Shown here piece by piece: positions 9,036-62,797 of a DNA stretch of 64,000 nt. Positions within the stretch are counted from its first letter, which is position 1; each line of letters begins with the position of its first letter. The notes under the pieces are model-generated. The model searched no databases, had not been told where the DNA came from, and saw only the letters and a program-made list of their open reading frames with translations. The position numbers and the translations under genes are program-made. Where the stretch lies: contig BEIE01000002.1 in NCBI GenBank assembly GCA_002898255.1, positions 248,001 to 312,000 on the forward strand. Reading direction: 5' to 3'. Source of the stretch: a bacterium HR28 (GTDB taxonomy: Bacteria; Chloroflexota; Chloroflexia; Thermomicrobiales; Thermomicrobiaceae).

Positions 9036-9267
9036 ACCTTGGGAAAGGTGGAAGATCACCGCCCCACGTGGTCTCACGAGACGGTGGTCAGGCTCCAGAA
9101 GCCTGACAACACTACGTTCGACAGTGGCGCTCCCCCGGTGCGGCATCAACCGATACCGCCCAACTGGAACTCCACTGTCGAACGTGCGGAACCTCTGCAC
9201 TATTGTAAACGACGGAATGCCCGCTGTGGTTTCGCCGATCCGAGTACTGGGAGACAACCGGTACTCG
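9036..9267 (-). ncRNA. Stem-loop cluster upstream of prkA, possible structured leader
   Basis: Six inverted repeats follow one another: 9036-9049 (ACCTT, loop GGGA), 9071-9082 (GTCTC/GAGAC), 9087-9107 (8-bp GTCAGGCT/AGCCTGAC), 9114-9185 (14-bp perfect arms, ACGTTCGACAGTGG), a nested 9140-9159 stem, and 9241-9267 (10 bp with one wobble). On the minus strand all lie 130-360 nt upstream of the prkA start, so a regulatory leader is possible. They could equally be an unrelated hairpin element. I do not recognise a known RNA family, and the strand is inferred only from the neighbour. Confidence 0.4.
9114..9185. repeat. Long inverted-repeat element, 14-bp perfect arms, 44-nt interior
   Basis: The arm at 9114-9127 (ACGTTCGACAGTGG) is perfectly complementary to 9172-9185. 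Inside, CCGGT (9135-9139) can pair with ACTGG and GCGGCATC (9140-9147) with GATACCGC (9152-9159, one mismatch). The whole 72 nt can thus fold as one long interrupted hairpin. No target-site duplication flanks it. It resembles in architecture, not in sequence, the elements at 29784-29863, 40426-40514 and 62424-62499. Confidence 0.75.
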
Positions 9268-9455
9268 TTGGCTACTCACCCTGCCGTCATTTCGCAGCCG
9301 TGCCTCGCCCTCCTCCAGGCCAATCCCCCTTGACGCGCCGGTTCACCCCTGAGCGGCAGTCGAGCCACCTGATTTGTTCGCCTGACAGGGCTCCGGTGTA
9401 CACCCCCGGCATGCATGAAGCGTTCGTCGAGAACCACCACAAAGGAGGCATACGA

Positions 9456-9569
9456 ATGCAGCGGACCTTCATGGCGGTTGTTTTGACGGGAGCGCCCTGG
9501 CGGGGGACAAAATCAGGTTATTACCGCTGTTTCGCCACAGGATTCGAAGTCCGTGACCTCCATGGATAG
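9456..9569 (+). CDS. Possible 37-aa small protein or gene remnant
   Basis: A very strong ribosome site (AAAGGAGG, seven bases before the ATG at 9456) precedes a short frame beginning MQRTFMAVVLTG and ending at TAG in 9567-9569. The first dozen residues are mildly hydrophobic; the rest is basic and aromatic. There is no family match that I know. The ribosome site is better than that of most real genes here, so the frame may be a genuine small protein or the 5' end of a decayed gene. The remaining spacer up to 9724 shows nothing else. Confidence 0.3.
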   Translation: MQRTFMAVVLTGAPWRGTKSGYYRCFATGFEVRDLHG

Positions 9570-9724
9570 CCGAGTTGGTGTGAACCACCCATGACTTCGC
9601 GCTGCTCTCGGCAAGATGTCTCAAGAACCCGCTGCAGCCCCGGAAGCCCGGGAGCGCGCTTCCACGACAATCGCGGTCAGATTGTGGGCGAGAGGGTATC
9701 CTTGACGATCGCGAGGAGGTGTAG

Positions 9725-10855
9725 GTGCTCGCGCTCATTCGTGCAGTTGGTCTGCGCTTCTTGATCGTCAATCGCGTTCCGCTCCCCGCGATCGATTTCG
9801 CTCTCCGCTTGGCGAGCGCTGCTTTGCTCTCGCCAGCTGGACGCTACCGCTTCCTCCTCGCTGGCATCCATCCTCGTACGCTCAAAGCGACGCTACGCCG
9901 GATCCGTCGGCTCCAGGATTGGCCCCATGCGTGGGTTCGTGCCGCTCACTCCTACCTCCTGGCTGCGCACGAGCGAGCCGCTGCCGGCGAACTGCGCGCT
10001 GCGGCCGAACTGCAGCGTGTCGCCGCTCTCTGTTATCACTTCGGACACGTCATGGTACTCGACGATCTCGCCCGGCGCCGAGCCCTCTACACCGCAGCAG
10101 CCCGCTTATTCCGTACCGCTGCCCCCCACCTGGACCCTGCAATCCGGCCGATCGAAGTCCCCTGGCGCGGTTTCGCCCTCCCCGGCTACCTCTGTGTGCC
10201 GAGCGACCGTCCCTCCCCACTTGTCGTCTTCTTGAATGGTGCCAGCACCGCGAAGGAAGAAATGGTCACCTGGGCCGCCCCGTTCTTACGCCGTGGACTC
10301 GCCGTCCTCGCGCTCGACACGCCAGGTAGTGGCGAAGTCGCCGACCTTGTCCCAGCAGCACCTGGCCAGGAAGATGTCGGTTGGGCAATCATCGAGGCGG
10401 CACGTCATCTCCCCGAGGTTGATCCGAAGCGGATCGCCCTGCTGGGCATAAGCCTCCGAGGGGCCTACGCCGTTCAGCTCGCTCACACTGTCCCTGAGAT
10501 CGCTGCGGTGGTCTCGGTGACCGCGCCGTACGATCCACGCCCGTATCTCGACCTGCTTGGCGAGCTCGTCCGCCGCGACGTGGCGTTCGCCGCCGGTGTC
10601 ACCCCCGGCGACTTGGCCCGCCTCGCACCAGCGCTTGCGCTCGACACTATCGCACCGCACCTCCAAACACCGCTTCTCGTCGTCGGTGCAGGAAACGATC
10701 TCGTCGTCCCGCCACAGGAGTCAATTCGGCTCTACCGGGCTGCCGGTGGGCCGAAGCACCTTGCCTTCTACGAGCGGGCTAATCACGTCGCGTTTACGCA
10801 TCTCGAGCAGTGGACAGCACTGGCCGCGACCTGGCTCGCCGCTACCCTTATGTAA
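9725..10855 (+). CDS. Alpha/beta hydrolase (FrsA/DUF1100-like esterase)
   Basis: A 376-aa hydrolase with an all-helical N-terminal region of about 130 residues followed by the alpha/beta fold, as in FrsA-like and dihydropseudooxynicotine-hydrolase-like enzymes. The nucleophile elbow is GISLRG, with the serine as likely nucleophile. The acid is probably the Asp in GAGNDLVVP and the base the His in RANHVAF near the C-terminus. The oxyanion region is VVFLNGAST. The substrate cannot be read from sequence. Start: GTG at 9725, close behind GGAGGT. Its 3' end overlaps the convergent ftsH-like gene by 8 nt (10848-10855). Confidence 0.85.
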   Translation: MLALIRAVGLRFLIVNRVPLPAIDFALRLASAALLSPAGRYRFLLAGIHPRTLKATLRRIRRLQDWPHAWVRAAHSYLLAAHERAAAGELRAAAELQRVAALCYHFGHVMVLDDLARRRALYTAAARLFRTAAPHLDPAIRPIEVPWRGFALPGYLCVPSDRPSPLVVFLNGASTAKEEMVTWAAPFLRRGLAVLALDTPGSGEVADLVPAAPGQEDVGWAIIEAARHLPEVDPKRIALLGISLRGAYAVQLAHTVPEIAAVVSVTAPYDPRPYLDLLGELVRRDVAFAAGVTPGDLARLAPALALDTIAPHLQTPLLVVGAGNDLVVPPQESIRLYRAAGGPKHLAFYERANHVAFTHLEQWTALAATWLAATLM

Positions 10856-12737
10856 GATCCGGTCGCTGTTGCTCGCGCTCCGACGAATCACTCTCGCCGA
10901 TGAGCACCGGCTCGCTCCCCAGCGACTCGCTCGCTCCGTCAACCCCAGCCAGGATCGCCCGCTCCTGCGCCTGCCTCACCTCCAGCGGCTCCGGTGGTTC
11001 CTCCACTGGTGGCGGAACGACCAGCTGGAAACGAGACAAGATCTCCCGCAACTGCTGTTCGTTCAGCTCATCGCGCTCGAGCAGCCCCTGGGCGATCGCT
11101 TCCACCGCCTCGCGGTTTGCTTGCAAGAGTCGCTTCACATTTTCAAACTGTCGTTGCAGGAGCCGCTCGATACGCTGCTTGCGATAGAGATCTGGAACAA
11201 GCTGGTTGTAGGTCAATCCGCTGTAGAGCGATCCATCCATGCCCCACGCTGAGACCATCAGGTTCGCAAGATGTGTCGCTTGGGCCAGATCGCTCGTTGC
11301 CCCGGTCATTTGAGTACCGAGGAAGAGCTCCTCTGCCGCACGAGCGGCCAGCGCCACCTGAATATCTGCCAGGAGTTCCTCGCGCGTCTTTGTGAAGCGC
11401 TCCTCCGTCGGTTTCGTCGCCGAAAACCCGAGCGCTTCGCCGCGCCGGATGATCGAGACTTTCACCACACGTTCCTTGGGTTGGAGCAGGTACTGTGCCA
11501 GCGCATGGCCAGCTTCGTGATAAGCGATCCGCCGTCGTTCCTCGGCCGACATCGTGCGGATCGGTTGCCTCAACCCCAGTTCGTGCGTTTCTCGCGCGGC
11601 GGTGAAATCCTCGTACGTAATGTAGTTCCGTCCCTCGAAGTGTGCGTGGATAACTGCCTCGTTGATGACGTAGCGAATCGCCGCTGGCGTATACCCAATC
11701 GTGTCGTGCACCATGTAGTCGATCGGAATGTTGGGGTCATGCTTGACCTTGCTGAGGTAGTACTCGATGATCTCTCGGCGGCCGTCGGCACTCGGCAAAT
11801 CAACCACGATTTTCCGGTCAAATCGACCCGGCCGCAGCAGCGCCGGATCCAGCGCATCAGGCATGTTCGTCGCCGCAATCGTTAGAACCGGTGGAAGTTC
11901 TGCTCGTCCCCGCCGTAAGCCGAGGAGTCGCAAGATACGGCCAATGAGCGTCACTTCCTGTGGGGGCGGATCAAGCTGCAGCAGGAGCTCATTCAGCATC
12001 GCGTTGCCGCCCCACCCGAAGAGCGGCCCCAAAAATCCCTGGCCAGCGTATCGCCCGCCCCGTGCTTGGGCAATCGCGTCGATTTCGTCAATGAACAGAA
12101 TACAAGCCCCATACTTCTTCGCCAGCTTCCGTGCTTTGCGGTACAGCATCATGATCCGCAGGTTGCTCACGCCGAAAAACATGTTCTGAAACGAGGGCGC
12201 ACTCGCATACCCGAACGGGACGTTCGCCTCCGTCGAGATGCACTGCGCGAGATACGACTTCCCAGTCCCTGGCGGTCCAACCAGCAGCAGGCCACGGATC
12301 GCCTCACCACCCATCTCTTTGAATTCCTTGATCCCTTTCAGCAGAGTGACGATCCGCCGCGCGCTCTCCAGCACCTCTGGATTACCCTTGTAATCCGCGA
12401 AGCTGACCCCCGTTTCTCCCGGCTTGATCCAGTACGTGCGCCCCCGACCCAGGAACCAGAAGATCGCAGCAAACTGGATGATCACGAACACGATCGCGAA
12501 GGCAATCTGCAAGAGAGCAAAGAGAACCGTCAAAACAATCGGCCCCCACGCCGCTCGCGCCGGCCAGGCCCAGATGTAGAAGGCATACCCAAGCGCTGCC
12601 AGCGTCAGAAGCCCTCGAAAATGCGTTCGAATGAGGTCCGCAATCCCAACAATGGCGTCGTCAATCTGCTGCTCCAGGTCGTCCCAGTAGCGACGACGTT
12701 CGCGCGTCTTCGGGAGCGTCTGTGTTTGTCCGCTCAT
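10848..12737 (-). CDS. Divergent FtsH-like membrane AAA+ zinc metalloprotease
   Basis: Likely ATP-driven protease of the inner membrane. The first 40 residues are cytosolic. Two hydrophobic stretches (about 42-60 and 65-97) are joined by a very short loop, so the extracytoplasmic domain of ordinary FtsH is missing. Then come Walker A GPPGTGKS (154-161), the pore motif MFFG (187-190), Walker B LFIDEID (214-220), the arginine-finger region RPGRFDR (302-308), the zinc site HEAGH (407-411) and the third ligand in TGATSDLAQAT (D483). All catalytic residues are present. An insert of about 35 residues sits after Walker B. The acidic, Glu-rich tail is poorly conserved. The gene follows a membrane protein gene by 12 nt. 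Confidence 0.9.
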   Translation of the reverse strand: MSGQTQTLPKTRERRRYWDDLEQQIDDAIVGIADLIRTHFRGLLTLAALGYAFYIWAWPARAAWGPIVLTVLFALLQIAFAIVFVIIQFAAIFWFLGRGRTYWIKPGETGVSFADYKGNPEVLESARRIVTLLKGIKEFKEMGGEAIRGLLLVGPPGTGKSYLAQCISTEANVPFGYASAPSFQNMFFGVSNLRIMMLYRKARKLAKKYGACILFIDEIDAIAQARGGRYAGQGFLGPLFGWGGNAMLNELLLQLDPPPQEVTLIGRILRLLGLRRGRAELPPVLTIAATNMPDALDPALLRPGRFDRKIVVDLPSADGRREIIEYYLSKVKHDPNIPIDYMVHDTIGYTPAAIRYVINEAVIHAHFEGRNYITYEDFTAARETHELGLRQPIRTMSAEERRRIAYHEAGHALAQYLLQPKERVVKVSIIRRGEALGFSATKPTEERFTKTREELLADIQVALAARAAEELFLGTQMTGATSDLAQATHLANLMVSAWGMDGSLYSGLTYNQLVPDLYRKQRIERLLQRQFENVKRLLQANREAVEAIAQGLLERDELNEQQLREILSRFQLVVPPPVEEPPEPLEVRQAQERAILAGVDGASESLGSEPVLIGESDSSEREQQRPDLT

Positions 12738-12749
12738 GGCCGACCACCT

Positions 12750-13370
12750 TCACTGAAGCTGTGGTGTGTCGACGAGGAAGATCAGTCCGTCGCTATCGAC
12801 CCAGAAGATCTGGTAAACCATGCCACGCTGGTCGTTGGCGTTCCGCACCTCAGTGACATAGAAGTAGTAGGCCTGCCCATCCGGGAGCCGATAGCCGCCG
12901 ACATAGGTGCTGTCCTCAAAGCGAAAGCCCTGCTCTTGAAGAAGCTGAATTGACTGGCGGAATGTCGCCAAGCTCTCCCCACTCGCCAGTCGCCTCGCCT
13001 TCGCTTCTGGACTCAGTGTTTGCCACATCCGCTCCGCATCGAAATTCCGTTGTGCCTCCAGATACGCCCGCACGCTGGGCGGCGGCGCGATCACCGGTGC
13101 GGTGCGAACCGCTGGTTCATTCACTGATCCTCCCTGCTCCGGTATAAGCGCACGGTAGGCGTAGAAAGCGCCCAGCGCCACGAGGAGCACAACCAGCAGA
13201 TGCCGCCACGCAAACCGGATGGTGCGAATTGTCACCCACAACAGCTTTCGGAGAATGACCCGAAGGACCTGCACCACGGCAAGGAACGGCCACAATAGGA
13301 GACGCACACGACGCCGGTGCACAGGCCCAGGAAGCTGTGGAACCGTCGGAGCCGGGGCCGTTACAGTCAT
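12750..13370 (-). CDS. Single-pass membrane protein with NTF2-like extracytoplasmic domain
   Basis: Unrecognised family. Starting at the ATG at 13370 the protein has 206 residues: a short Pro-rich N-terminus, a basic amphipathic stretch, one membrane helix (HLLVVLLVALGAFYAYRAL), then a soluble domain of about 110 residues. That domain (YLEAQRNFDAERMWQTL, YYFYVTEVRN, VYQIFWVDSDGLIFLVD) has the pattern of NTF2/SnoaL-like folds. A longer version from 13430 has no better ribosome site. It ends 12 nt before the FtsH-like gene and is almost certainly co-transcribed, so it may be an adaptor or substrate-presenting partner of that protease; this role is inference. Confidence 0.7.
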   Translation of the reverse strand: MTVTAPAPTVPQLPGPVHRRRVRLLLWPFLAVVQVLRVILRKLLWVTIRTIRFAWRHLLVVLLVALGAFYAYRALIPEQGGSVNEPAVRTAPVIAPPPSVRAYLEAQRNFDAERMWQTLSPEAKARRLASGESLATFRQSIQLLQEQGFRFEDSTYVGGYRLPDGQAYYFYVTEVRNANDQRGMVYQIFWVDSDGLIFLVDTPQLQ

Positions 13371-13839
13371 AGAGAACGTCTCATCCTTGTGAACTCGTCC
13401 CAAACCCTTGCTCTTTGGAGAGTGTAGCACGTGCCTGGGGCTGCAGGAGAGCCGTGAGCGAGGTATCTTCGCACAGCCGGTACCGTAGGCCGTTCAAGTT
13501 TGATTCGACACCCCTTCGCTGCCACATCCTTCCCGAGCGAAGGTCCCTTCCAATTCACGTGCCATTGCCTCTGCAAGACGTCAAAGGGTTCAGTTCCATC
13601 AGGGGCGTCGGACCATTTCTCGCGGTGACACAGCATGAGTTCATTCGCTGTCACGCCCCAGGTGCATCGCCAGACGACTTGCACCGAGTGGACCCACGAG
13701 CCATTTCTCTGGCCCACGATGGGACACGAGGCACAACAAACTCACCTTTGCAGATCACCGACGCAGTCTTCGCACGAGTGCTACTGCCTCGACGGCCGGC
13801 CATGATCAGGTGAAGAGCTGCAGAGCTTCCGGCGATCCG
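13371..13839. other. 469-nt spacer with three stem-loops
   Basis: No credible gene. Three inverted repeats stand out: CCTTCGCT/AGCGAAGG (13513-13520 with 13536-13543), GTGACACAGC/GCTGTCAC with a 2-nt bulge (about 13625-13653), and GGTGCA/TGCACC (13661-13666 with 13680-13685). None is followed by a U-run. Confidence 0.6.
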
Positions 13840-15246
13840 TCAGTGCGCCGCGATGCGCTCCACCAGGCTCTTCCCGCTCGGCGGACGACCAGTCGACTCC
13901 GCAATCCGGTCGAGTCGCTCGTAGCCGATCTGCACGAAGCGAACTCCTAACCAGCGCAGTGGCTCCGGTTCCCACGGTCGCAGCCGATGTTGCGTCATCG
14001 GGAATCGGGTTAGCTCGCTGTCTCGTCCAGTGATGAGATCAGCCAAGATGCGTCCTGCCAGATTCGCGGTCGCAACACCCTGCCCAGTATAGCCACACGC
14101 CATGGCGATACCGGTCCGCGGATCGTACCGCATCGTCGGCATCCAGTCGCGCGGCACGCCGAGCGGGCCACCCCACGCATGGGTGAAACGGATCCCATGT
14201 AGGCGCAGCGCCGGGAACCATTCGTAGCACATTTGCCGCAACATCTCGTGTGTCGGACCATGCCGGTCGAACGCGTCGGCGATGCGTGACCCGAACCGGT
14301 ACGGCGCTCCGCGTCCGCCAAACATGATCCGTCCGTCAGCAGTGCGCTGCAGATAATCCACGGTCAGCCGCTGAGAGGAAAGGAGTTCACGGTTGCTCCA
14401 TCCGAGTTCGTTCCAGAGCTCATCCGGAATCGGCTCTGTGAGAACGATCAGTGAGTAGATCGGGATGAGCGCCCGATGTAACTGACGGAGCTGTGAAAGG
14501 TAGGCTTCTCCTGCCAGGACAAGCACCCGAGCCCGCACGTCCCCATACGGCGTTCGGAAGACTGGCCGGATGCCCCCACGGAACTCGATGACCGGCGTTT
14601 CCTCGAAGATCGTGGCACCGCGACGTTCGACAGCGCGGGCAAGCCCTCGTACCAGTCGACCCGGGTGGATCACTGCACCATGCGAAGAGTACAGCCCTGC
14701 TACCGCGTTCGTCACTCGAATCCGCTCACGCACGGCCTCCGCCGAAAGCCACTCGGCGTAGTCCGTGATGCCCAGTCGCTCCAAAGTCCGCGCTGTCTCC
14801 TCGAGTGCCGGGACCTGATGGATCCCCCTCGCCAGCCGTAGCACGCCCCCACGGTGGAAATGGGCGTCAATCCCCTCCTCGCGGAGTACCCGCTCCACCT
14901 CGTCGACGGTCGCCCGCATCGCATAGTGGATCGCTCGCGCCGTCTCGACACCGTACCGACTCGCCAGCTCTCCCAGAGATACCGGAAATCCCGGATAGAG
15001 CCACCCCCCGTTCCGTCCCGATGCACCGAAGCCGGCGATTTTCTGCTCAAGAATGACGACCTTGGCACTCGGCTCTCGCTGCAGAAGGTAATAGGCAGTC
15101 CAGAGCCCAGTGAAGCCGGCGCCAAGAATCGCGACATCAACGTCGATCGTCCCCTCCAGCCGCGGCCGGGGCGTCAAGTCGTCTCCGCAAGTCTCCAGCC
15201 AGAAGCTGTACTGCGCGTACACCGATCCGGCGGCCAGCTCTCCCAT
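13840..15246 (-). CDS. FAD-dependent amine/amino-acid oxidoreductase (DadA family)
   Basis: A 468-aa flavoprotein of the DAO fold that oxidises an amine or amino acid, closest in style to gamma-glutamylputrescine oxidoreductase (PuuB). The dinucleotide motif VAILGAGFTGLWTAYYL is followed by FGASGRNGGWLYPG, the characteristic second FAD contact. GIAMACGYTGQGVATANLAGRILADLITG marks the C-terminal FAD site. Start: ATG at 15246, a few bases after GGAGGAGG; frame extension upstream to 15498 lacks homology. It is divergent from a small unknown gene. The next gene on the same strand upstream is an aminotransferase, so amine or lysine catabolism is a reasonable context, but the substrate is unproven. 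Confidence 0.85.
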   Translation of the reverse strand: MGELAAGSVYAQYSFWLETCGDDLTPRPRLEGTIDVDVAILGAGFTGLWTAYYLLQREPSAKVVILEQKIAGFGASGRNGGWLYPGFPVSLGELASRYGVETARAIHYAMRATVDEVERVLREEGIDAHFHRGGVLRLARGIHQVPALEETARTLERLGITDYAEWLSAEAVRERIRVTNAVAGLYSSHGAVIHPGRLVRGLARAVERRGATIFEETPVIEFRGGIRPVFRTPYGDVRARVLVLAGEAYLSQLRQLHRALIPIYSLIVLTEPIPDELWNELGWSNRELLSSQRLTVDYLQRTADGRIMFGGRGAPYRFGSRIADAFDRHGPTHEMLRQMCYEWFPALRLHGIRFTHAWGGPLGVPRDWMPTMRYDPRTGIAMACGYTGQGVATANLAGRILADLITGRDSELTRFPMTQHRLRPWEPEPLRWLGVRFVQIGYERLDRIAESTGRPPSGKSLVERIAAH

Positions 15247-15367
15247 GGCGCCCTCCTCCCATGCCGACGGCAGTATAGCCCGGTTCGTCAACACGCGCCT
15301 GGTCGTGCGAGAACGCTTCTCGTACACTGGCGGTGATGGCACTCGCCTATTGTGCGAGGAGTTCGGT

Positions 15368-15895: not shown

Positions 15896-15976
15896 ACGCG
15901 TTACTTGCCAGCGTTCTGTATCGCCTCGGCCCCGCGGCGTCTCATAAGAAAGGGTCGGACACACCAGATTCACCGC

Positions 15977-15989
15977 GGCGCTTCGCGCC
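15977..15989. terminator. Tight hairpin between convergent genes
   Basis: GGCGC, loop TTC, GCGCC lies 80 nt past the unknown gene's stop and 30 nt past the aminotransferase stop on the other strand. It is a plausible bidirectional terminator, though the U-run is weak (GTTCTCT follows on the plus strand). Confidence 0.45.
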
Positions 15990-16018
15990 CGTTCTCTGCC
16001 TATTCGCAGCAAGCAGTA

Positions 16019-17236: not shown

Positions 17237-17345
17237 TACAACGGCTCCTTCCCTGCGCGTGGTATGCTGCGCGGCGGCGCACCGCCGTCCCAGTATAGCG
17301 GACGGCAACCCGATCACTGACGAGGGAATGGAGGAGGAGTTGGCG

Positions 17346-29783: not shown

Positions 29784-29863
29784 GTCCAGGACGCGCTGGA
29801 TCGCTGTGAGAGGAGGTGCTTTGCAGGGCACCGTTACATCAACATCGATCCCGCGTCCTGGAC
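29784..29863. repeat. Long inverted-repeat element, 12 + 6 bp stem
   Basis: GTCCAGGACGCG (29784-29795) is perfectly complementary to CGCGTCCTGGAC (29852-29863). Past a 2-nt bulge, GGATCG (29798-29803) pairs with CGATCC (29846-29851), giving 18 bp. A small GGTGC/GCACC stem sits in the interior. It starts 23 nt after copZ. There is no U-run, so it is not a normal terminator. The rest of the spacer to 30403 (about 540 nt) shows no gene. Confidence 0.75.
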
Positions 29864-40425: not shown

Positions 40426-40514
40426 GCGGACACCGCAGGAATAAGGTTCATGCTCGCGGAGAACGGCACGCCATCGACCGCACATCCGCGGCCGCAGCAT
40501 CCTGCGGTGTCCGC
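40426..40514. repeat. Long inverted-repeat element, 15-bp perfect arms, nested stems
   Basis: GCGGACACCGCAGGA (40426-40440) is perfectly complementary to 40500-40514. Inside, TGCT (40451-40454) plus CGCGGA (40455-40460) pair with TCCGCG (40485-40490) and AGCA (40496-40499), with a 5-nt bulge. It lies in the 362-nt gap between convergent pepF and ubiE. There is no U-run. Nothing else is seen in this gap. Confidence 0.8.
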
Positions 40515-45877: not shown

Positions 45878-45904
45878 GTGCGCAACGCCCAGAACAGACC
45901 ACGG

Positions 45905-46232: not shown

Positions 46233-47156
46233 GTGAGTCAAGCTGAGGGCCCGTTGCGGATACAGATGCGGCTGGCGCGACTCGCCGCAGCGTACTTGCC
46301 GCTGGGGATCGCTAACTGGTTGATAGAGGCGGGCGCGCGGCGCGTCATGCTCCCTCCTGACATCAAGCGGGAGGAAATCCGCATCGACAGTCTCCGCTGT
46401 ATCTGGCTCGTCCCTGAGAGGAGCCGAAGCGATCGGGTGTTGCTGTACCTCCACGGTGGGGGATTCGTGTTCGGGTTGAGCGGGCAGCACCTTCGAATGG
46501 TCGCGGAACTCGCGCGACGATCCGAACTCCGGGCTCTTCTTGTCGATTATCGGCTGGCTCCGCGTCATCCGTGGCCAGCAGCACTGGAAGACTGCCTGGC
46601 AGCGTATCGCTGGCTCCTTGAGCAAGGATTTGCGCCGCAGCACATTGTGGTGGCCGGAGACTCAGCGGGTGGAAACCTTGCGATCACGATGGTGATGGCG
46701 CTACGCGATGCCGGAATCCCGCTCCCCGCGGCCGTCGCTTGCCTGTCCCCGGTCGGCGATCTCGCACGGCGCGAAGGGGAAGGCCGGCTGGTCGGTGACG
46801 CGGTGTTGCATCCGCGGGCGATCCGGCGGTTCAACCGGTCGTACATTGCTGGCCACGACCCACGCCATCCGTTGATCTCGCCGCTGTATGGAGACTGGCA
46901 TGGACTGCCGCCGCTCCTCATCCATGCTGGTGAGGAGGAACTCCTGCGGGAAGACGCCGAGCGAATCGCAGCTACAGCCCGGGCAGCAGGGGTGGAAGTA
47001 GAACTCACGATTTTCCCTCGGATGTGGCATGTCTGGCAGCTCAACTTGGAACTCCCGGAGGCGAAGGAGTCGCTTCACGCCATCGCACGCTGGCTTGTGG
47101 AGCAACTCAAGAGAGCGGAAGAGCGTGGAGCAGCGCCCGCATACCATAGGGACTGA
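46233..47156 (+). CDS. HSL-type (bacterial family IV) carboxylesterase, copy 1
   Basis: Alpha/beta hydrolase of 307 aa in the hormone-sensitive-lipase group. The oxyanion-hole motif is YLHGGGFVFG, the nucleophile GDSAGGN, the acid is the Asp or Glu region of HAGEEELLREDAER, and the histidine is in RMWHVWQL. VDYRLAPRHPWPAALED is typical of the family. GTG start at 46233 behind GAGGA. A paralogue lies next to it (47649-48545); the last 90 residues of both are strikingly alike. Such enzymes hydrolyse short acyl esters; the natural substrate is unknown. Confidence 0.92.
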   Translation: MSQAEGPLRIQMRLARLAAAYLPLGIANWLIEAGARRVMLPPDIKREEIRIDSLRCIWLVPERSRSDRVLLYLHGGGFVFGLSGQHLRMVAELARRSELRALLVDYRLAPRHPWPAALEDCLAAYRWLLEQGFAPQHIVVAGDSAGGNLAITMVMALRDAGIPLPAAVACLSPVGDLARREGEGRLVGDAVLHPRAIRRFNRSYIAGHDPRHPLISPLYGDWHGLPPLLIHAGEEELLREDAERIAATARAAGVEVELTIFPRMWHVWQLNLELPEAKESLHAIARWLVEQLKRAEERGAAPAYHRD

Positions 47157-47648
47157 CGCCTGCACGACAGTGAACTTTCGGTTGCGCTGCCTGTTTTGAG
47201 TCGATGGCCACGCGGCGCCCGATCATCGACGATGGCCCGCGAGAATGTGGCGAACCCCGTGACGAACCAGGATGATCGCCGGCGAGGCGCTTCGCGTCCT
47301 ACAGTCTTGACTTACCGCTTGCGATCGTCACCAGGCCGACGCATGGGTTGCGTGCTCGACTGAAAACAACGGGCAGGAAGGATTGCATCAACGTTGCCGG
47401 TTCAACTCGGTCAGAGTTGAGCGGAAGCGGTCTAGCGCGGAACGGCTCATTCAAGAATCCATCGTATCACCAGCTGTGTAGCATATCGTGTCATTTCTGC
47501 GAATTGAGAGCAATCTCCCTCCTTGTGCCTGCTGATCACTCAGCCGGCCCTGCAGATGTGCACACAGACAGTGTCACACCACTGTCACGACTTCATGCTG
47601 CTTGTAGTGCAGGATCAGGCCGGGGCCTCGAGTGAGAGGAGGGCCGCG
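47157..47648. other. 492-nt spacer between the esterase paralogues, three hairpins
   Basis: Stem-loops: a nested GCCAC...GTGGC fold near 47209-47265, TCAACTC GGTCA GAGTTGA at 47402-47420, and GACAGTG TCACAC CACTGTC at 47567-47586, the last 63 nt before the second esterase start. No gene seen; no U-run. Confidence 0.6.
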
Positions 47649-48545
47649 ATGAGGGGTAACACCTCGCTGACTGTTCCACGAAGTCCTCGTTCTATTGTCG
47701 AACTCCTGGGCACGGAACTTTCGCTACCAGAGGCGCGCTCCATGATTGAGCGGGCACGGCGGATTAGCCGATTACCTCCGGGAACTCGACGCGAGGTATG
47801 GAATGTCGGGGGTGTCCGCTGCGAATGGTTATTACCCGAGCAAGCCGATTCTTCCTGGGTACTCGTGTATCTCCATGGTGGTGGCTTTGTTCTCGGGCGG
47901 ACGGCGCTGCATGTTGGGCTCGCTGCGACATTGGGGCATCTTTGCGCAGCGCGTGTACTGCTTATCGATTATCGACTTGCGCCCGAACACCCGTATCCGG
48001 CGGCGCTCGAAGATGTGACGCTGGTGTACCGGGCATTGCTTGCAGCCGGTTGGGCGCCGCACCGCATCGCAATAGCGGGAGATTCCGCTGGCGGTAACTT
48101 GACACTCGCGACGCTGCTAAGCCTGCGCGACGCTGGTCATCCGCTGCCGGCCGCGGCAGCGTGTCTCTCCCCAGTTGTCGACCTTGCTGATTCAGAGGAG
48201 CGCAGCCGGAGGGGGCGCGACAGGTGGCTTCGGCCAGAAGTGGTGACACTGTTTAATGAGGCCTACCTGAACGGCCAAGATCCGCGTCACCCGCTCATCT
48301 CTCCGGTGTACGGGGACCTACGCGGACTCCCACCATTGGTTATTCACGCCGGCGGCGAGGAGCTGTTGCGGGAAGATGCCGAGCGGCTGGCAACCGCGGC
48401 CTGGGCGGCAGGCGTTCAGGTGGAGCTGGCGATCTACCCTGGGATGTGGCATGTCTGGCAGCTGAGCTTGGAACTCCCGGAGGCACAGGAGTCACTGAGG
48501 AGGATCGCGCGGTTCTTACGGCAGCACGTGTGGGCAGAGGTGTAA
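47649..48545 (+). CDS. HSL-type carboxylesterase, copy 2
   Basis: Alpha/beta hydrolase of 298 aa, paralogue of the preceding esterase. Motifs: YLHGGGFVLGRTALHVG, IDYRLAPEHPYPAALED, GDSAGGNLTLATLL, DPRHPLISPVYGDLRGLPPLVIHAG, GMWHVWQLSLELPEAQESL. The order and spacing match copy 1, so it arose by tandem duplication followed by divergence of the N-terminal lid region. Start: ATG at 47649 close behind GAGAGGAGGG; longer frame upstream runs through a hairpin spacer and is not protein-like. Its terminator lies inside the end of the convergent helicase gene. Confidence 0.92.
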   Translation: MRGNTSLTVPRSPRSIVELLGTELSLPEARSMIERARRISRLPPGTRREVWNVGGVRCEWLLPEQADSSWVLVYLHGGGFVLGRTALHVGLAATLGHLCAARVLLIDYRLAPEHPYPAALEDVTLVYRALLAAGWAPHRIAIAGDSAGGNLTLATLLSLRDAGHPLPAAAACLSPVVDLADSEERSRRGRDRWLRPEVVTLFNEAYLNGQDPRHPLISPVYGDLRGLPPLVIHAGGEELLREDAERLATAAWAAGVQVELAIYPGMWHVWQLSLELPEAQESLRRIARFLRQHVWAEV

Positions 48546-50887: not shown

Positions 50888-50918
50888 GACAGGGCCGGAG
50901 CAAGTCCGGCACGGGTAC

Positions 50919-53839: not shown

Positions 53840-54124
53840 ACCGTTCGTCTCGCCCCGTTCACGCGTGACACTGCGTCCATCCGCTCGCCGGTGGCGGAAG
53901 TCCGCTCTTGAGGATTCTACCAGGCCTTGCGCGCTTCTTATCCCTCGTTCCGTGTCGGCGGGCAATGGGCAACGCCGCAGCATACAAGTTCGCAGCCGTA
54001 GCGCCGAGAGATCCAGAGACGGTACCGTGTGTCGCCTAGGACGATGCGGCAGTATCGAAACTCTCGCGGAGAAGCAAGGGACAAATCAAGCACGTGGCAG
54101 AGGCAGGAAGACACCAGTTGCTGT

Positions 54125-56577: not shown

Positions 56578-57216
56578 GTGCTCAGAGCGCTGCATCGCTG
56601 GGAACATGAGGATCGCCCGCTGCACCGCCGCGATTTGGCTCCTGACCCGCTCGAACAGTTCTTGCGCTGGTATCGAGAAGCGGAGGAGGCTGGTTTGCGA
56701 TACCCCAATGCGATGGCACTGGCGACAGCGACACGCGACGGTCGGCCGTCGGTGCGGATGGTTCTGTTGCGCGGAGCTGACGAGCAGGGCTTTGTCTTCT
56801 ACACCAATCTTGAGAGCCGAAAGGGACAAGAACTCGCGGAGAATCCTCGCGCGGCCTTGCTCTTCTACTGGGAACCACTGGAACGACAAGTACGCATCGA
56901 AGGGCATGTCGAACTAGTCAGCGACGCGGAGGCGGATGAGTACTTCGCTACGCGCCCATACGGTTCTCAGATCAGTGCCTGGGCATCCGCGCAAAGCCAG
57001 CCGATTGCCTCGCGCGAGGAGCTCGAGCAGCGCCACCGCGCTTTCGCCGAGCGGTTTCCAGAGGGCGCCGTCCCACGACCACCGTTTTGGGGCGGCTTTC
57101 GCGTCCGGCCAGTGGTGTACGAGTTCTGGCAGGGCCGACCCGATCGGCTCCACGATCGTTTCCGGTACGAGCGACAACCAGATGGAAGCTGGTCGATTGA
57201 GCGGCTGCAACCGTGA
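56578..57216 (+). CDS. pdxH: Pyridoxamine 5'-phosphate oxidase PdxH
   Basis: FMN enzyme that oxidises pyridoxine or pyridoxamine 5'-phosphate to PLP. Length 212 aa is normal. Motifs: [55 protein letters not shown] (FMN site), [34 protein letters not shown], and the terminal [27 protein letters not shown] start at 56578, six bases after GGAAGGAG. It is followed by a HIT gene 9 nt later, so they form a unit. Possible regulation by hairpins in the long leader. Confidence 0.95.
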
Positions 57217-57225
57217 GGGACACAG

Positions 57226-57648
57226 GTGAAGGACTGCACGTTCTGCCGGATCAGCAGTGGAGAAGTCACAGCCGTCCGCGTCTACGAGGATGCGCAGGTG
57301 CTCGCTTTTCTTGACCACCGCCCTCTTTTCCCCGGCCATACGCTGGTTATCCCACGGGCTCACGTGCCGACGCTCGCTGAGCTGCCCGACGATCTCCTTG
57401 TGCCCGTTTGGAGTCTGGTGCGCAGTCTCACGCGCGCCATCCCGCAAGCCTTGGGGGCAGAGGGGACCTTCGTGGGCATCAATAACCGGGTAAGCCAGAG
57501 CGTGCCGCATCTCCACGTGCATGTGGTGCCACGGCGCCGCGGCGATGGTCTGCGGGGTTTTTTCTGGCCTCGACAACGCTACCCGAGCGCTGAGGCGATG
57601 GAAGAGGTGGCAGCCCGCATCCGGGCAGCACTCGCAGACCTCATCTGA
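57226..57648 (+). CDS. HIT family nucleotide hydrolase
   Basis: Histidine-triad protein of 140 aa. The catalytic triad motif is HLHVHVVPR near residue 95-103; the N-terminal CTFCRISSGEV has the two cysteines common to HIT proteins that bind zinc. It probably hydrolyses nucleoside phosphoramidates or AMP/ADP adducts. GTG start at 57226. Co-transcribed with pdxH; no functional link is known to me. The C-terminal helix (EAMEEVAARIRAAL) is typical. Confidence 0.92.
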   Translation: MKDCTFCRISSGEVTAVRVYEDAQVLAFLDHRPLFPGHTLVIPRAHVPTLAELPDDLLVPVWSLVRSLTRAIPQALGAEGTFVGINNRVSQSVPHLHVHVVPRRRGDGLRGFFWPRQRYPSAEAMEEVAARIRAALADLI

Positions 57649-57867
57649 GGGGCAGACAGCTCAGTCGCTCCTTTGGCCAACGAGTGAGCTGCGGAGCTCG
57701 CGAGTCCGACGTTCGCGAGTTCTTCACCCTCGCCAGCGTGAGGCCCTGATTTCCCCAGGCGGTGAGCACAGCAGGGGGCAGCAATCGCGTCAGCAGTCCT
57801 TGACAGAACAGCGGTCCACTGGTAAGAGATCGCCGGAGACCGGTGGGCGAGGTTGTGGAGGTGGGTG

Positions 57868-58425
57868 ATGAAGTCAGCGGTACTTGTCATCGATATGCTG
57901 AACGACTTCGTGACAGGGAAGCTGGGGAACGAACGGGTGCGCACCGTCATCGAGCCGATTCGGCGGTTACTCGAGCGAGCTCGCGCTGCTGGTGTGCCGG
58001 TGATCTACGTCGGCGATGCACATCTTCCGAGTGATCCGGAGATGGCTGTCTGGGGTCCTCATGCGATGAAGGGGACCAAAGAGGCAGAGACGATCCCGGA
58101 ACTGGCGCCCCAGCCTGGCGATGTGGTGCTCGAAAAGCGAACCTACAGCGCCTTCTACGAGACCGGCCTTGACCTGTTACTACGTTCGCTTGGCGTTGAC
58201 ACGGTGGTCATCACCGGGTTGCACACGAACATCTGCTGCCGTCACACCGCCGCTGACGCGTTTACCCATGGATACCGGATTGTCGTGCCAGAGGACTGCG
58301 TCAACGCGTTCACCGAGGAGGAGCACAAGGAGGGAATCGCCTATCTCAAGCGCGTCTATGGAGCGCAGATCACAACGAGTGAGGAACTCGCGCGAGAGTG
58401 GGCCACCGAGCGGCAGAGCACCTGA
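57868..58425 (+). CDS. Cysteine hydrolase (isochorismatase/nicotinamidase family)
   Basis: A 185-aa isochorismatase-fold amidase. The catalytic triad is D in VIDMLNDFV, K in VLEKRTYSAF and C in TGLHTNICCRHTAADAF; the metal-binding Asp/His of nicotinamidase appears in YVGDAHLPSDPE. A cis-peptide-like VITGLHT precedes the nucleophile. It may be a nicotinamidase but could as well act on ureido or carbamoyl compounds. Start: ATG at 57868 behind GGAGGTG; an upstream GTG at 57853 is less well placed. A long hairpin begins 20 nt after the stop. Confidence 0.88.
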   Translation: MKSAVLVIDMLNDFVTGKLGNERVRTVIEPIRRLLERARAAGVPVIYVGDAHLPSDPEMAVWGPHAMKGTKEAETIPELAPQPGDVVLEKRTYSAFYETGLDLLLRSLGVDTVVITGLHTNICCRHTAADAFTHGYRIVVPEDCVNAFTEEEHKEGIAYLKRVYGAQITTSEELAREWATERQST

Positions 58426-58444
58426 GGATCGCGAGATGCCCAGG

Positions 58445-58481
58445 GCAGGCACAGGTATGAGCGAACATCCCTGTGCCTTGC
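58445..58481. repeat. 11-bp hairpin downstream of the cysteine hydrolase
   Basis: GCAGGCACAGG (58445-58455) pairs with CCTGTGCCTTGC (58470-58481) with one bulged T; outer GCCC/GGGC can extend it. It may end the transcript, but no U-run follows. Confidence 0.6.
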
Positions 58482-59650
58482 AGCATCGGGCTCATCGCAA
58501 GCAACCATCCAGCCGGCTCGCAAAGCGATGAAGGCGTAGAGCGCCACCATCGCACTCTGCCGTCGCAAGTACGCTATTCGCGTCTGACGATGTCACGACT
58601 GGACGACTCGACAGGTGTGGAGGCTCTGCACGGTGGGGCGAGCTCCCTGCCGATGCGTCCGCTCGCTGGGACGACGTCAGAATCAGCAATCTCTTCCACG
58701 ACGCTGAACTCGCGCACTCCTTTCAGCCTGCGGCCTACGTGTGAGCAAGAGCGGTCATTACCCGAGGTAGACCAACTCCACGTGCTCTGGTGGCGCGCTA
58801 CCCCGTTCCGGCATCGGCGCACGCAATTTCGTAGGGCGTCTCGCGAGGGCACGACACGTCCCCGCATCCAGACTCACTGGCTCCCGGCATGACTGCGACG
58901 GCTCCGTGACATGTCACTACTAACAGGCCGAGTCGCGCTTCGGCAGAACAGTAGGTCGGCGCAATGCCATCCACAGTGTCCGCGAGTGGGCCACGCCTGG
59001 GGGACCAAGGTGTGATGAACCGACTTGAGGCGCCAGGGCCTGTGATGTATACGACCAGAAGACCATCGGCAAGTGCTCTCAGCAGGCAGACTGTTGGCAG
59101 TGAAGGTCACGCGCAGGTATCAAGAGCCAGCGCTCCACCCCCAAGGCACGCTCCGATAGAGTGCGATCAGGGTTGGCAAAGACCGCGGACTTGCACCAGA
59201 AGGATCGCACACGTCCAGAATCGAGTCGCAACTGGTCATATTGCGCTCCGTGACACCACTGTGCGCACCAGTGCGACGTATCGGCGCGGTCTTCAGGGCC
59301 CTGCCGGGGCCGGAGTGTTCCGCCAGAGCAACGACGAGACGGCCACCTTTTGGTCGGCGCAGGACAGATGTGCGGGAGCCGAGCGAGCGCATCAGAGAAG
59401 AGCACACCTGGTTTGTGCACAGTGCTGCCACGAGAGTGAAGTCCTCCAAGGCTTGGCATCCACGGCAGGAGATCGTTCACGCGGGCGAGGATGGCCGTGC
59501 ATCAAAGCCCTGTGTCGGTAGGCTCCCAGGGCGTGGGACCGTAGTGCAGCCAATCCTTCAAATGTGAGCAGGTCGATCCAAGAGACGCCACTCCTCTTGC
59601 CATCCGGGCCTTGCTCCTTGATGCTGCAGTGGTGACTGAAGGAGGTCACG
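58482..59650. other. 1.2-kb spacer with one nested hairpin element
   Basis: The largest gap in the window. Frames on both strands are Arg/Ser/Thr-rich without ribosome sites. At 59225-59277, GTCGCA-A-CTGGT pairs with ACCAG-TGCGAC (11 bp, one bulge) around a 30-nt interior. AAGGAGGT at the very end serves the next gene. No promoter boxes that I trust. Confidence 0.6.
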
Positions 59651-61003
59651 ATGGGACAAGAGCCGACCCTGCGAGATGTTGTCGAGAAAATCTGCGCCCA
59701 GAGAGGAGTCCCGGGGATGGCGGTCGGCCTGCTCACCGAAGCCGGCCGCGAAATCGTCACGTACGGTGTGGCGAGCGTAGAGACGCGATGTCCGGTGCGA
59801 CGTGATACGCTGTTCCAGATCGGTTCGATCACCAAAGTATTCCTCGCCACCGTGGCCATGCAGCTGGTGGAGCAGGGCCTGGTCGCGCTGGACGAACCGG
59901 TGGCCGCCTCTGTGCCTGAGTTTCAGCTGGCCGATCCACGAGCACGAGACACGATCACGCTGCGGCACCTGCTCACACACACGAGTGGCATCGAAGGGGA
60001 TCGTTTCGACGACTACGGTTACGGAGACGATGCGCTTAGCCGGTACGTTGCGAGCCTGGCGAACGCGCGCCAGATCCACGCGCCAGGGCAGCACTGGAGC
60101 TACTGCAACAGCGGCTTTTCTGTAGCGGGACGTCTCATTGAGATCAAGACGGGGCAGACATTTGAGACCGCGATGCGCGAGCGGCTGTTCCAGCGGCTAG
60201 GGCTGGAGCGGAGTTTCTTCTTTGCGCAGGACGTTCTCGGGTATCCGTTCGCCTGCGGGCACCGGACAAGTGAGAACGGAACGGTCGAGGTGGTACGTGA
60301 CTTCGCACTACCGCGGACTGTGCATCCAGCAGGTGGAATCTGGGCAACGATCGACGATCTCTTGAGCTTCGCCGCCTTCCATCTCGGGCTGCTTCGCCTG
60401 TCGGATCCACCGCTCTCGCCAGAGGGCGTGGAGCTGATGCAGAAACCGCAGGTAGCAGCTGGTTACTGGGCCGACGCCTATGGGTTCGGCTGGGCAATCT
60501 GGTCGGTGGGAGACACACGACTCATCGGGCACGGTGGCTCAACGAACGGTTTCCAGGCACATGTGGTTCTCTTGCCAGAACAGCGTGTCGCGATCGCCAG
60601 CCTAACCAATCACGAGTCAGGAAGTGCAGCAATTTACGAGCTCGAGACCTGGATCCTCGCGGAGCGCTTCGGGATACAGGTACCGAACCCACGGAGCGTC
60701 ACGGTGGGTGAGGCCGAACTCGCGCGTCTCGCCGGGACATATGAGTACCCATTGGCACGTGTGACGGTCCGTCCCGCAGCGGGTGGGCTCTGGCTGGAGA
60801 CGGTCCAGACGCGAGGACTGAGCCGGGAACAGCACGAGCGACAACTTCCACCGCTGTTCCTTCGGCCAATTGGGCGGAGTGTGTTCACCGCGGGGCCAGC
60901 GCGTGTGGTACCGAATCGTGTCGACTTTGTGTTCGACGGAGACAGCGAGCGACCGCGTTGGATTCGTGTGTTCGGGCGACTGGCCGAGCGCGTGGAGAGG
61001 TGA
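59651..61003 (+). CDS. Serine hydrolase of the beta-lactamase/DD-peptidase (class C) fold
   Basis: A 450-aa cytosolic serine hydrolase. The S-x-x-K motif is SITK (residues 58-61), Y-x-N is YCNSGF, and the third motif region is GHGGST. No signal peptide, so it is not a secreted beta-lactamase; relatives include D-aminopeptidase, esterase EstB and CubicO-type proteins. A C-terminal beta domain (from about 350; LARLAGTYEYPLARVTVRPA) is like the lipocalin-type tail of such enzymes. Start: ATG at 59651 with a perfect GAAGGAGGT. Substrate unknown. Confidence 0.88.
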   Translation: MGQEPTLRDVVEKICAQRGVPGMAVGLLTEAGREIVTYGVASVETRCPVRRDTLFQIGSITKVFLATVAMQLVEQGLVALDEPVAASVPEFQLADPRARDTITLRHLLTHTSGIEGDRFDDYGYGDDALSRYVASLANARQIHAPGQHWSYCNSGFSVAGRLIEIKTGQTFETAMRERLFQRLGLERSFFFAQDVLGYPFACGHRTSENGTVEVVRDFALPRTVHPAGGIWATIDDLLSFAAFHLGLLRLSDPPLSPEGVELMQKPQVAAGYWADAYGFGWAIWSVGDTRLIGHGGSTNGFQAHVVLLPEQRVAIASLTNHESGSAAIYELETWILAERFGIQVPNPRSVTVGEAELARLAGTYEYPLARVTVRPAAGGLWLETVQTRGLSREQHERQLPPLFLRPIGRSVFTAGPARVVPNRVDFVFDGDSERPRWIRVFGRLAERVER

Positions 61004-61119
61004 GGTAGAACAGCAGCCACAGGACATGTCCTTCTAGGACATGCGTGAGGCAAGAGGGCAACCAGACATGCGGAGTTCCCGACCGAGCGATGGTGGAGGC
61101 AAGCTTCCACGTCCCAGGC

Positions 61120-61899
61120 CTACCAGGCCGTCCAACCACCGTCTACGGGTAGGGTTACCCCGGTAATCATGCTGGCAGCGTCGGAGGCGAGGAAGACTAC
61201 AGCTGCCGCGACCTCCTCAGGTGAGCCGAGGCGTCCCAGGGGAATACGGCGCAGCACTTCCTCCCGAAAACCAGGGATACGCTCGAAATAGGGGCGGGTG
61301 AGTGGTGTCTCGACGAAGGTTGGCGCAACGGCATTGACGGTCACGTTGTACGGGGCCCACTCGATGGCGAGCACTTTGGTGAGCTGGGAAACCGCCCCTT
61401 TGCTCGCACAGTAGGCGGCGCGATCGACCATCCCGACGAGTCCCATCGTGGAGCCGATATTGACAATGCGACCATAACGCTGGGCGACCATGTATCGGCC
61501 GACCGCTTGGCAACAGAAGAAGAGTCCCTTGGCATTGGTATCCATGATGGTGTCCCAAGCCTCTTCCGTTACCTCTAGGGCCGGTTGCGGGATATTGAGC
61601 CCAGCACTGTTGACGAGGATATCGATCCGTCCGAAGCGCTCGAAGGCTGCATCGGCCATGCGGCGAACCTGAGCGAGATCGCGAACGTCGACTGCCAGCG
61701 GGAACGCATGTCTCCCGCGCGCTTCGACAGCACGACAGATGTCGGCCAAACGCTCCAGCGAGCGACCCGCCACCACCAGATCAGCACCAGCTTCGGCAAG
61801 TGCGAGCGCGCTCGCGTAACCAAGGCCGCTCGAAGCACCGGTCACAAGCGCCACGCGGCCATCGAGACGAATATCGAGCCACATGCGCTGTTCATCCAT
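61120..61899 (-). CDS. Short-chain dehydrogenase/reductase
   Basis: Classical SDR of 259 aa. Cofactor motif TGASSGLGYASALALAEAG, NAG motif VNSAGLN, catalytic Ser in NIGSTMG and YxxxK in YCASKG; the end GVTLPVDGGWTAW is typical. Closest in style to gluconate 5-dehydrogenase or 3-oxoacyl-ACP reductase (FabG-like) proteins; the substrate is undetermined. ATG at 61899; an internal M6 is possible. It lies on the minus strand, far (about 0.9 kb) behind the 3-hydroxyisobutyrate dehydrogenase-like gene, with hairpin elements between. Confidence 0.9.
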   Translation of the reverse strand: MDEQRMWLDIRLDGRVALVTGASSGLGYASALALAEAGADLVVAGRSLERLADICRAVEARGRHAFPLAVDVRDLAQVRRMADAAFERFGRIDILVNSAGLNIPQPALEVTEEAWDTIMDTNAKGLFFCCQAVGRYMVAQRYGRIVNIGSTMGLVGMVDRAAYCASKGAVSQLTKVLAIEWAPYNVTVNAVAPTFVETPLTRPYFERIPGFREEVLRRIPLGRLGSPEEVAAAVVFLASDAASMITGVTLPVDGGWTAW

Positions 61900-62423
61900 T
61901 GTCTACCTCCCTGCGGTCCCGCTCTCAGCTCTAGTCTGTGGAGGCAGGGTCGAACGGGCAAGAGAAGAGTACGACGTGGGGGAGCATAAGCTGGGATCTT
62001 GGGCGAACTCGAAGCGCTTCAGCAGGCTGAACAATGGTCTCCGGGCATTCCCACGGACAGGCGGCCATCGCACGTGGTCTGCCACGACTGCCATCGTGCT
62101 GTGTCCAGACGCTTGTGGTGTCCAACAAGCCCGCACTCTGGCCACCGTGGAATGCAGGCTCGGCAGCACAGCGTGCCGGACGACGGCCGAAGCAGCCTTC
62201 TGCTTCTCGGCGTGTCGTGTCGCCATCACGGCGCGGGGCATGCGGACGGCGTTGTCATGGAGACAATAGGCGGAGACTCCAGGAAGCGACAGCACCAGTA
62301 TCACCAGGGAGGTGGCGAGTGCCCGCTTCTCAGCCCAGGTCGGATGCCCGGTGGCAAAGAACTGTTGCGATTTTGTAATGTTCCCCTCTTGCATTCACTC
62401 ACTGGACGAGTATCCTGAAGCTA

Positions 62424-62499
62424 GGCCCCGACGATTCGAGGCCGGGAATCTGAAACCCGAAAGGGGAGTAAGAGACCCGAACCAAGGATCGTCGGGGCC
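62424..62499. repeat. Long inverted-repeat element with internal GAAA tetraloop stem
   Basis: GGCCCCGACGAT (62424-62435) is perfectly complementary to ATCGTCGGGGCC (62488-62499). The 52-nt interior can form GG..CGGG/CCCG..CC and, inside that, CCC-GAAA-GGG, a GNRA-type hairpin on the plus strand. I do not recognise a known riboswitch or RNA family. Confidence 0.75.
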
Positions 62500-62758
62500 C
62501 TGTCTTTTGGCCGAATATCGGGAACTCTTGGCACATCGGCACCTGCGGCGGCCTCCCAACCGCTCTCTGCCCGAAGGCCATGACGATTGGAGCTCCGTGC
62601 TGGCAGGGAACGTGGCATCGGCACCAGTACAGACCGGCAGGAGAAAGGCACACATCGAGGAACACAGACAAACCCGTCCTTTTTCCAGTTCACTCGTGGC
62701 AGCTGGACACGCTGCGAGAAGCACGAGGCCTCGCCTGCACGGCGAAGGGAGAACGCAG

Positions 62759-62797
62759 GTCGATTGGCGCCGGCTTCCTCACCTTGCGCCAATCGAC
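62759..62797 (-). terminator. 12-bp hairpin 40 nt downstream of the HIBADH-like gene
   Basis: GTCGATTGGCGC (62759-62770) pairs perfectly with GCGCCAATCGAC (62786-62797), 15-nt loop. Position suggests it ends the minus-strand gene that stops at 62838, but no U-run follows (CTGCGTTCTC). Confidence 0.55.

Follow-up and report, generated by a model that had tools for sequence, protein, structure and literature searches.

Four perfect-armed hairpins in the window

The window of this study is a 64,000-nucleotide stretch of bacterium HR28 (C2:248001-312000, C2 being contig BEIE01000002.1) within a 3.12-Mb genome of the Thermomicrobium group; parts of it match the megaplasmid of Thermomicrobium roseum DSM 5159. 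Four hairpins, at 9114-9185, 29784-29863, 40426-40514 and 62424-62499, have perfect arms of 14, 12, 15 and 12 bp enclosing interiors of 44, 56, 59 and 52 nt, respectively, and each folds as a nested hairpin with a z-score between -5.1 and -9.3 relative to its own shuffles. None lies inside a gene called by our own simple script, which was run on 864 kb including the window (28% of the genome). An original prediction, made from the letters of the DNA alone, had described four intergenic elements with arms of 12-15 bp, interiors of 44-59 nt and further stems nested inside, and in all of these respects as well as in their positions it was exact. Judged by their sequences, we regard it as probable that the four hairpins represent three different things: a small RNA gene at 62424, a leader hairpin of the prkA operon at 9114, and unconstrained palindromes at 29784 and 40426.

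The relatives used for comparison were the genomes G003 (the closest examined), G005, G001, G002 and G006 as well as the T. roseum megaplasmid record. Gene order is mostly common to the window, G003, G001 and G005, the latter represented by one 37-kb contig corresponding to window positions 1-31 kb. Genera are labelled g1 (Thermomicrobium), g3 (the sister genus, to which G008 belongs), g2 (with G015), g4 and g5 (with G020).

A predicted small RNA gene at 62424

According to alignments and covariation, the body of the element (62424-62499, + strand) consists of a 14-pair closing stem, purine-rich internal loops and a GNRA tetraloop; the covariance model spans 62419-62505 on the same strand. The plus strand is taken to be the RNA strand because G-U pairs are kept there and because the model scores it at 105.1 bits, against 29.5 bits for the minus strand. 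Over 88 nt the element is 91% identical to its counterpart in G001, while the flanking genes reach 78-80%. Nineteen copies were aligned, with a gap inside one row; of the 361 pair cells, 99.4% are standard pairs, and six pairs are altered on both sides, a number attained by 11 of 500 shuffles (mean 3.5). The covariation measure is 0.313, compared with 0.182 for the shuffles and at most 0.087 when the structure is slid along the alignment; one of the five measures, further pair types, shows no excess (273 of 500 shuffles), and all of them refer to a structure derived from the same sequences that were used in the test. The GNRA tetraloop is present in all 19 copies in five different letter sets, and the internal loop GA-A/GAGUA may resemble the bulged-G (loop E) motif. 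ATG, GTG and TTG are absent from the plus strand of 62419-62505. About 4.5 kb separate the element from the next gene called on its strand, and the neighbouring genes vary between copies and genera, so that the element is not a leader here. Together, these sequence comparisons support a stand-alone small RNA gene of about 85-95 nt with compensatory change.

Promoter-like elements precede the body. The -10-like hexamer TATCCT (62411-62416, +) predicts a start at about 62422-62424, and the -35-like TTGCAT (62389-62394, +) is located 16 nt before it. In 17 of the 20 copies a TAnnnT motif occupies the same position; in T. roseum it is shifted 2 nt further upstream, and it is missing in G015 and G020. 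Still further upstream lies the direct repeat CTGTTGC-GATT-TTGTAAT (62362-62379, +; 7+4+7), a candidate activator site of the OmpR/PhoB type. Operators of the PhoB/PhoP type consist of 7-nt direct repeats with a 4-nt spacer, positioned upstream of or overlapping the -35 element; the candidate site shares this architecture, although we presume that its letters, YTGTTGC-N4-TTGTNAY, are not those of a textbook Pho box. Every one of the 11 copies in Thermomicrobium has this pattern, located between -57 and -59 or at -47 and accompanied by a weaker -35 element or none. It also occurs in G015 (at -37, with another at -68) and in G020 (at -68), and is absent from all seven g3 copies, each of which carries TTGACA 17 nt before the -10 element. 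Activation by a regulator predicts just such a division: in g3 a consensus promoter and no operator, in Thermomicrobium a weak promoter and an operator in phase. The distances -57/-58/-59, -47 and -37 are separated by steps of about one helical turn, a phasing that amounts to few independent events because copies with equal distance may share one ancestral indel.

A strict search for the operator in the 864-kb sample gave three matches, two of them in spacers, of which one belongs to the 62424 RNA. The second spacer copy, the direct repeat TTGTAGC-N4-TTGTAAC at C2:314881, about 2.9 kb past the end of the window, adjoins an hsp20-like gene with a TTGACA/TATATA promoter (both assigned by eye), which is possibly under the same regulator. 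A looser direct repeat, TGTCAC-N5-TGTCAC, was noticed at window position 47571 (C2:295571, +), 170 nt before the gene at 47742-48545.

Immediately after the closing stem follows the U-rich tail CTGTCTTTTGGC (62500-62511, +), which together with the stem resembles an intrinsic terminator, and between five and eight T are found within the 12 bases past the stem in all 20 copies. As in intrinsic terminators, the stem runs directly into the U-rich stretch; unlike in these, the stem is an interrupted one of 76 nt with a conserved interior, and the RNA consists entirely of the hairpin instead of ending in it. From these features we infer both transcription and the ends of the RNA. In the resulting model, a sigma-70-type promoter, preceded in Thermomicrobium by the direct-repeat activator site, would drive transcription of 62419-62510 from the 5' arm or slightly ahead of it; the transcript of about 85-95 nt would fold as one long rod with its ends paired to each other, and the closing stem and U-rich stretch would end transcription. 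We therefore read 62424 as a putative small RNA that depends on an activator and whose rod supplies the terminator.

Some observations weigh against this picture. The inner pairs 25-61, 27-59 and 31-55 are broken in 7, 8 and 7 of 17 rows, and the fold between closing stem and cap is uncertain since pairing of these short helices is incomplete in g3. The T of the tail do not form a run in every copy, G001b being without any run of three or more. Among the candidates scored, the RNA was not found in the near-complete genomes G007, G010, G012 and G014, and G009 yielded no more than 21.5 bits; with several near-complete relatives giving no match, it is not universal in the family.

Occurrence of the RNA family

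Across the order, 19 copies were found in 12 of 61 genomes, with two copies in seven of the 12. A DNA search matched the window genome (G000), G001, G002, G003, G005, G006 and four g3 genomes, to which the covariance model added G015 and G020. The DNA-search tally of 14 includes four short chance-like matches (G019, G026, G039 and G043); these are omitted from every count, as are the weak model matches in G011 (30-31 bits), G024 (24-27 bits) and G009. The model was applied to 73 or 143 of about 400-4,300 candidates per genome, and since only part of the candidates was scored some copies may have been missed. A twentieth copy is located on the T. roseum megaplasmid at 12681-12770 and scores 93.5 bits with a model built without it; the PLSDB table, in which RNA genes are not listed, has no feature there. 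In the window genome itself a paralogue lies at C1:448377-448463 (-), C1 being another contig, downstream of a glutamyl-tRNA-synthetase-like gene (named by eye), and shares the operator and promoter type.

A search of 400 genomes of the phylum, with 11 candidates scored per genome, detected the RNA in six, all of them in g1 or g3. An exact degenerate pattern built from the family copies, which would miss diverged relatives, matched 15 stretches among the GTDB species genomes, all of them assigned by title or kinship to Thermomicrobiaceae. Among these are Thermalbibacter longus and a metagenome-assembled genome titled Sphaerobacter; the latter, HR26 and HR27 were assigned to the family because their sequences are the same as those of G015, G018 and G006, respectively. 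Viral contigs did not match the pattern. Rfam 15 at gathering thresholds has no match in the whole window, and at 62330-62560 with E<=10 nothing convincing appeared, the best match being mir-9223 with 16 bits against a cut-off of 53. On this sequence evidence, the RNA is a family absent from Rfam 15 at threshold and found only in Thermomicrobium and its relatives. A literature search on small or noncoding RNAs of Thermomicrobium, Thermomicrobia and Sphaerobacter and on 6S RNA in Chloroflexi found no description of it. The genome paper of T. roseum tabulates, in the part consulted, one small RNA gene per replicon without naming them (PMC2615216), and these may be copies of the 62424 RNA.

Possible roles of the 62424 RNA

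Most likely, the RNA would be stable and act in trans, binding a protein through its purine-rich internal loops and GNRA cap under the control of a response regulator. A protein partner is the best guess because no conserved unpaired stretch is long enough or fit for antisense pairing, start codons are absent and no neighbouring gene is constant, while the stem, the purine-rich loops and the GNRA cap are conserved; that this role was arrived at by elimination also counts against it. Two known RNAs were considered and set aside. The small bacterial signal recognition particle (SRP) RNA is likewise a single hairpin of about 100 nt, with a GNRA-type cap, but RF00169 is not among the matches at 62330-62560, and here the SRP RNA has a separate gene at C5:98030-98129 (78.8 bits). 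As for a Y RNA, the Ro/TROVE protein PF05731 is absent from all seven g1 genomes and from G008.

Compensatory changes, two copies in most carrier genomes and a candidate activator site in helical phase make the family a convenient subject for the study of regulation by RNA in a thermophilic lineage. Its role is worth testing because 6S RNA seems to have been lost in this branch, as described below.

A proposed hairpin leader of prkA

On the minus strand, the hairpin at 9114-9185 (H1) precedes prkA (6967-8904), which encodes PrkA AAA and C-terminal domains and is followed by yhbH (5786-6955) and spoVR (4423-5793), all on the same strand; the genes are named from their matches in T. roseum, where the order is likewise prkA, yhbH, spoVR. 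H1 folds at -52.1 kcal/mol on the minus strand against -40.3 on the plus strand. Before it lies the promoter-like sequence GTCGTTTACAATAG with the -10 element TACAAT (9200-9213, -), 12-14 nt ahead of the CACG of H1, and after it two further hairpins, H2 (9087-9107, -) and H3 (9057-9086, -), and then UUCCACCUUUCC (9042-9053, -). The 261-nt leader as a whole folds at a z-score of -4.9.

The promoter-like box TTTACAATAG is present in all seven Thermomicrobium loci found; G004, which is 54% complete, gave no match to the locus. Within H1 the outer arms are nearly invariant, the inner stem is compensated and the apex letters differ between lineages. Pairs 12-14 vary among T-A, C-G, G-C and other combinations and remain paired in 7, 7 and 6 of the seven genomes. 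H2 and H3 also carry replaced letters in T. roseum; a pyrimidine stretch comes after them. A permissive Rfam search around 9114 returned nothing convincing, neither the box nor the arms recur in other spacers of the 864-kb sample within the mismatches allowed, and among the matches listed in literature searches on prkA, spoVR, yeaG and leader RNAs none concerned a prkA leader.

Our best reading of these sequence features is that H1 belongs to a leader that would stabilise or attenuate prkA-yhbH-spoVR. The transcript would open with three hairpins in tandem, of which H1 is the first and would act as 5' stabiliser or attenuator; in some species it may yield a short terminated RNA. Attenuators and 5' stabilising hairpins offer the parallel of a strong hairpin at the start of the leader, tandem hairpins and a U-run in some species. 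Two findings are unfavourable to this reading: the box TTTACAATAG is missing from all 12 prkA loci outside the genus, and no U-run follows H1 in three of seven genomes (the window genome, G003 and G005). Through a covarying leader, a stress-kinase operon would become accessible from the RNA side. By eye, CCACCUUUCC at 9042-9053 (-) complements the purine-rich stretch ahead of the start of prkA and could mask the ribosome site.

Palindromes at 29784 and 40426 and hairpins after genes

The hairpin at 29784-29863 begins 22 nt past the stop codon of a gene for an HMA-domain (copper-chaperone-like) protein, and the one at 40426-40514 lies between convergent genes for an M3 peptidase and a UbiE-type methyltransferase. 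On the plus strand of the window genome they fold at z-scores of -6.8 and -5.1. Their arms are disrupted in G003, where the orthologous stretches reach 0.3 and -2.0 on the plus strand and 0.1 and -0.3 on the minus strand. In the 3' arm at 40426, the two genomes differ by a 9-nt indel whose nine bases lengthen the palindrome in the window genome, which fits a templated insertion there or a deletion in G003. Both elements appear from their sequences to be lineage-specific palindromes without evidence of selection.

Three shorter hairpins had been listed in the original prediction as weaker cases. Those at 62759-62797 (-; 40 nt past the stop of the gene at 62838-63713, -) and 58445-58481 (+; about 20 nt past the stop of an isochorismatase-like gene) do resemble ordinary hairpins after stop codons; the former is kept in G003 with a z-score of -4.6, the latter is weaker there (-1.7 on the plus and -3.2 on the minus strand). 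At 59225 the fold is weak (-3.6/-2.5). We read these short cases as ordinary 3'-end hairpins.

Inverted repeats in spacers compared with chance

Repeats with arms of at least 12 bp and loops of 40-70 nt number four in the 14.2 kb of spacer in the window, whereas 300 dinucleotide shuffles gave a mean of 0.03 and a maximum of 1. The prediction's view that a chance origin is unlikely, for which it had proposed a comparison of densities with dinucleotide shuffles, thus gains support. The four are the sole ones of that size in the 91.6 kb of spacer of a 464-kb C2 stretch. Spacers contain more perfect inverted repeats with loops of at most 70 nt than shuffles do, and for loops of 71-120 nt C2 shows no excess. 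When hairpins are judged by energy, in counts that omit spacers above 3 kb, the enrichment disappears: C2 spacers contain 163 single hairpins with a span of 55-100 nt and an energy no higher than -38 kcal/mol, versus 171, 161 and 144 in three shuffles, and C1 spacers contain 173, versus 185, 177 and 175. Including branched structures yields a slight excess in C2 (417 versus 384, 385 and 389) and none in C1 (439 versus 427, 404 and 448). Short hairpins (arms of at least 10 bp, loops of 3-20 nt), counted outside C1 140-180 kb and in spacers from 30 nt to 3 kb, number 39; a stop codon flanks 36 of them on one side or both, the distance to a stop is at most 80 nt for 28, and the following ten bases contain 3.6 T on average. 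Ten of the 12 C1 spacer repeats with arms of at least 12 bp and loops of 40-70 nt belong, by eye, to one GC-rich repeat family. Outside it, most spacer repeats are ordinary terminator-like hairpins after genes. The family is dispersed over C1:146348-176850 and consists of CCCTCACCCCC and CCCCCTCTCCCGC units that form very stable hairpins.

A single recurrent class, the central proposal of the original prediction, does not stand up to the comparison with relatives, in which conservation differs among the four, or to the energy counts, in which long single hairpins are not enriched in spacers. Confinement to spacers describes the four correctly and does not extend to a genome rule, since repeats of the same size also occur inside genes (three in C1, two in C2). 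The absence of U-runs, stated for all elements, was wrong for 62424-62499, whose RNA strand continues with a U-rich tail. It was right that the four together are not copies of one mobile element, although 62424 for its part has a paralogue elsewhere in the genome; of the three searched for in the window genome, none has the many dispersed copies of a mobile palindromic repeat (REP or MITE), as 62424 is present in two copies, 9114 in one, and 29784 gave one match as part of a 396-base query. The suggestion of stable small RNAs holds, as far as sequence can tell, for 62424 with its promoter-like elements, covariation, U-rich end and many homologues, and is possible for 9114. Recombination-born palindromes or unconstrained hairpins fit 29784 and 40426 and not the other pair. 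The proposed comparison across related genomes divides them in the same way, with compensatory change at 62424 and 9114 and no preservation of 29784 and 40426 in G003.

Alternative explanations

For the 62424 RNA the most obvious known counterpart is 6S RNA (RF00013), a rod-shaped RNA with a large central bubble that some bacteria carry in two copies and that, like the 62424 RNA, is a stand-alone small RNA present in the same bacterial family. 6S RNA went undetected in all seven g1 genomes (two of them 54% and 62% complete), all four g3 genomes and the sole g4 genome, and was detected in three of three g2 and five of five g5 genomes, in g5 always below the Rfam cut-off. The window genome gave no RF00013 match at E<=0.001, nor did 62330-62560 even at E<=10, and Rfam found no 6S RNA at its usual site before holA in seven g1, g3 and g4 loci tested. 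Since the 62424 RNA is strongest in g1 and g3, the two distributions first looked complementary; G015 and G020, however, possess both RNAs, so that a simple replacement is unlikely. Moreover, the body of 76 nt is half as long as the 6S RNAs of the family (153-161 nt), the fold contains no large central bubble, Rfam 6S does not match, and the apparent loss may be a failure of the 6S model. That the 62424 RNA is 6S RNA in strongly diverged form, or its functional successor after loss in Thermomicrobium, is accordingly very improbable, and we attach equally little weight to a global regulator that would bind RNA polymerase or the ribosome via its loops and fill the place of 6S RNA where this was lost. 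For 9114, an independent small RNA with promoter, hairpin and terminator instead of a prkA leader is conceivable, if doubtful: the promoter-like box is found 12-14 nt ahead of the hairpin, and H1 is directly followed by a U-run in four of seven genomes (G001, G002, G006 and T. roseum), yet the window genome, G003 and G005 lack one, and H2, H3 and the pyrimidine stretch continue in the same direction before prkA.

Two further explanations would cover all four elements. If all served to terminate transcription or to mark 3' ends, as hairpins that lack strong U-runs, the location of 29784 just past a stop codon and of 40426 between convergent genes would be expected, as would the many short hairpins of the genome that lie close to stops and the terminator-like stem and tail of 62424. 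But neither 9114 nor 62424 stands behind a gene in the relevant direction; both have promoter-like elements of their own and interiors that are conserved or covary more than a terminator requires, and 29784 and 40426 are not kept in G003, all of which renders this account unlikely. Palindromes that arose by template switching in replication and were retained by chance would match the perfect arms of 29784 in the window genome, imperfect in G003 and G005, and the nine extra bases by which, relative to G003, the 3' arm of 40426 extends its match to the 5' arm. The covarying arms of 9114 and the homologue family of 62424 are left unexplained; at 40426 G001 is too diverged to give the direction of change, and the 5' arm of 29784 agrees with G005, so that G003 may be the changed one. 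As an origin of all four, template switching has in our estimate a small chance of being correct. The three-part reading, which assigns 62424 to a small RNA, 9114 to a leader and the other two to unconstrained palindromes, is the one we prefer.

Other stretches

A 16-kb stretch at C1:311.4-327.5 kb is without called genes and holds several hairpins. Within the window, 46851-47074 and 48275-48496 each match the other's counterpart in G003 at about 72%, cross-matches that point to duplication of the genes at 46233-47156 and 47742-48545.

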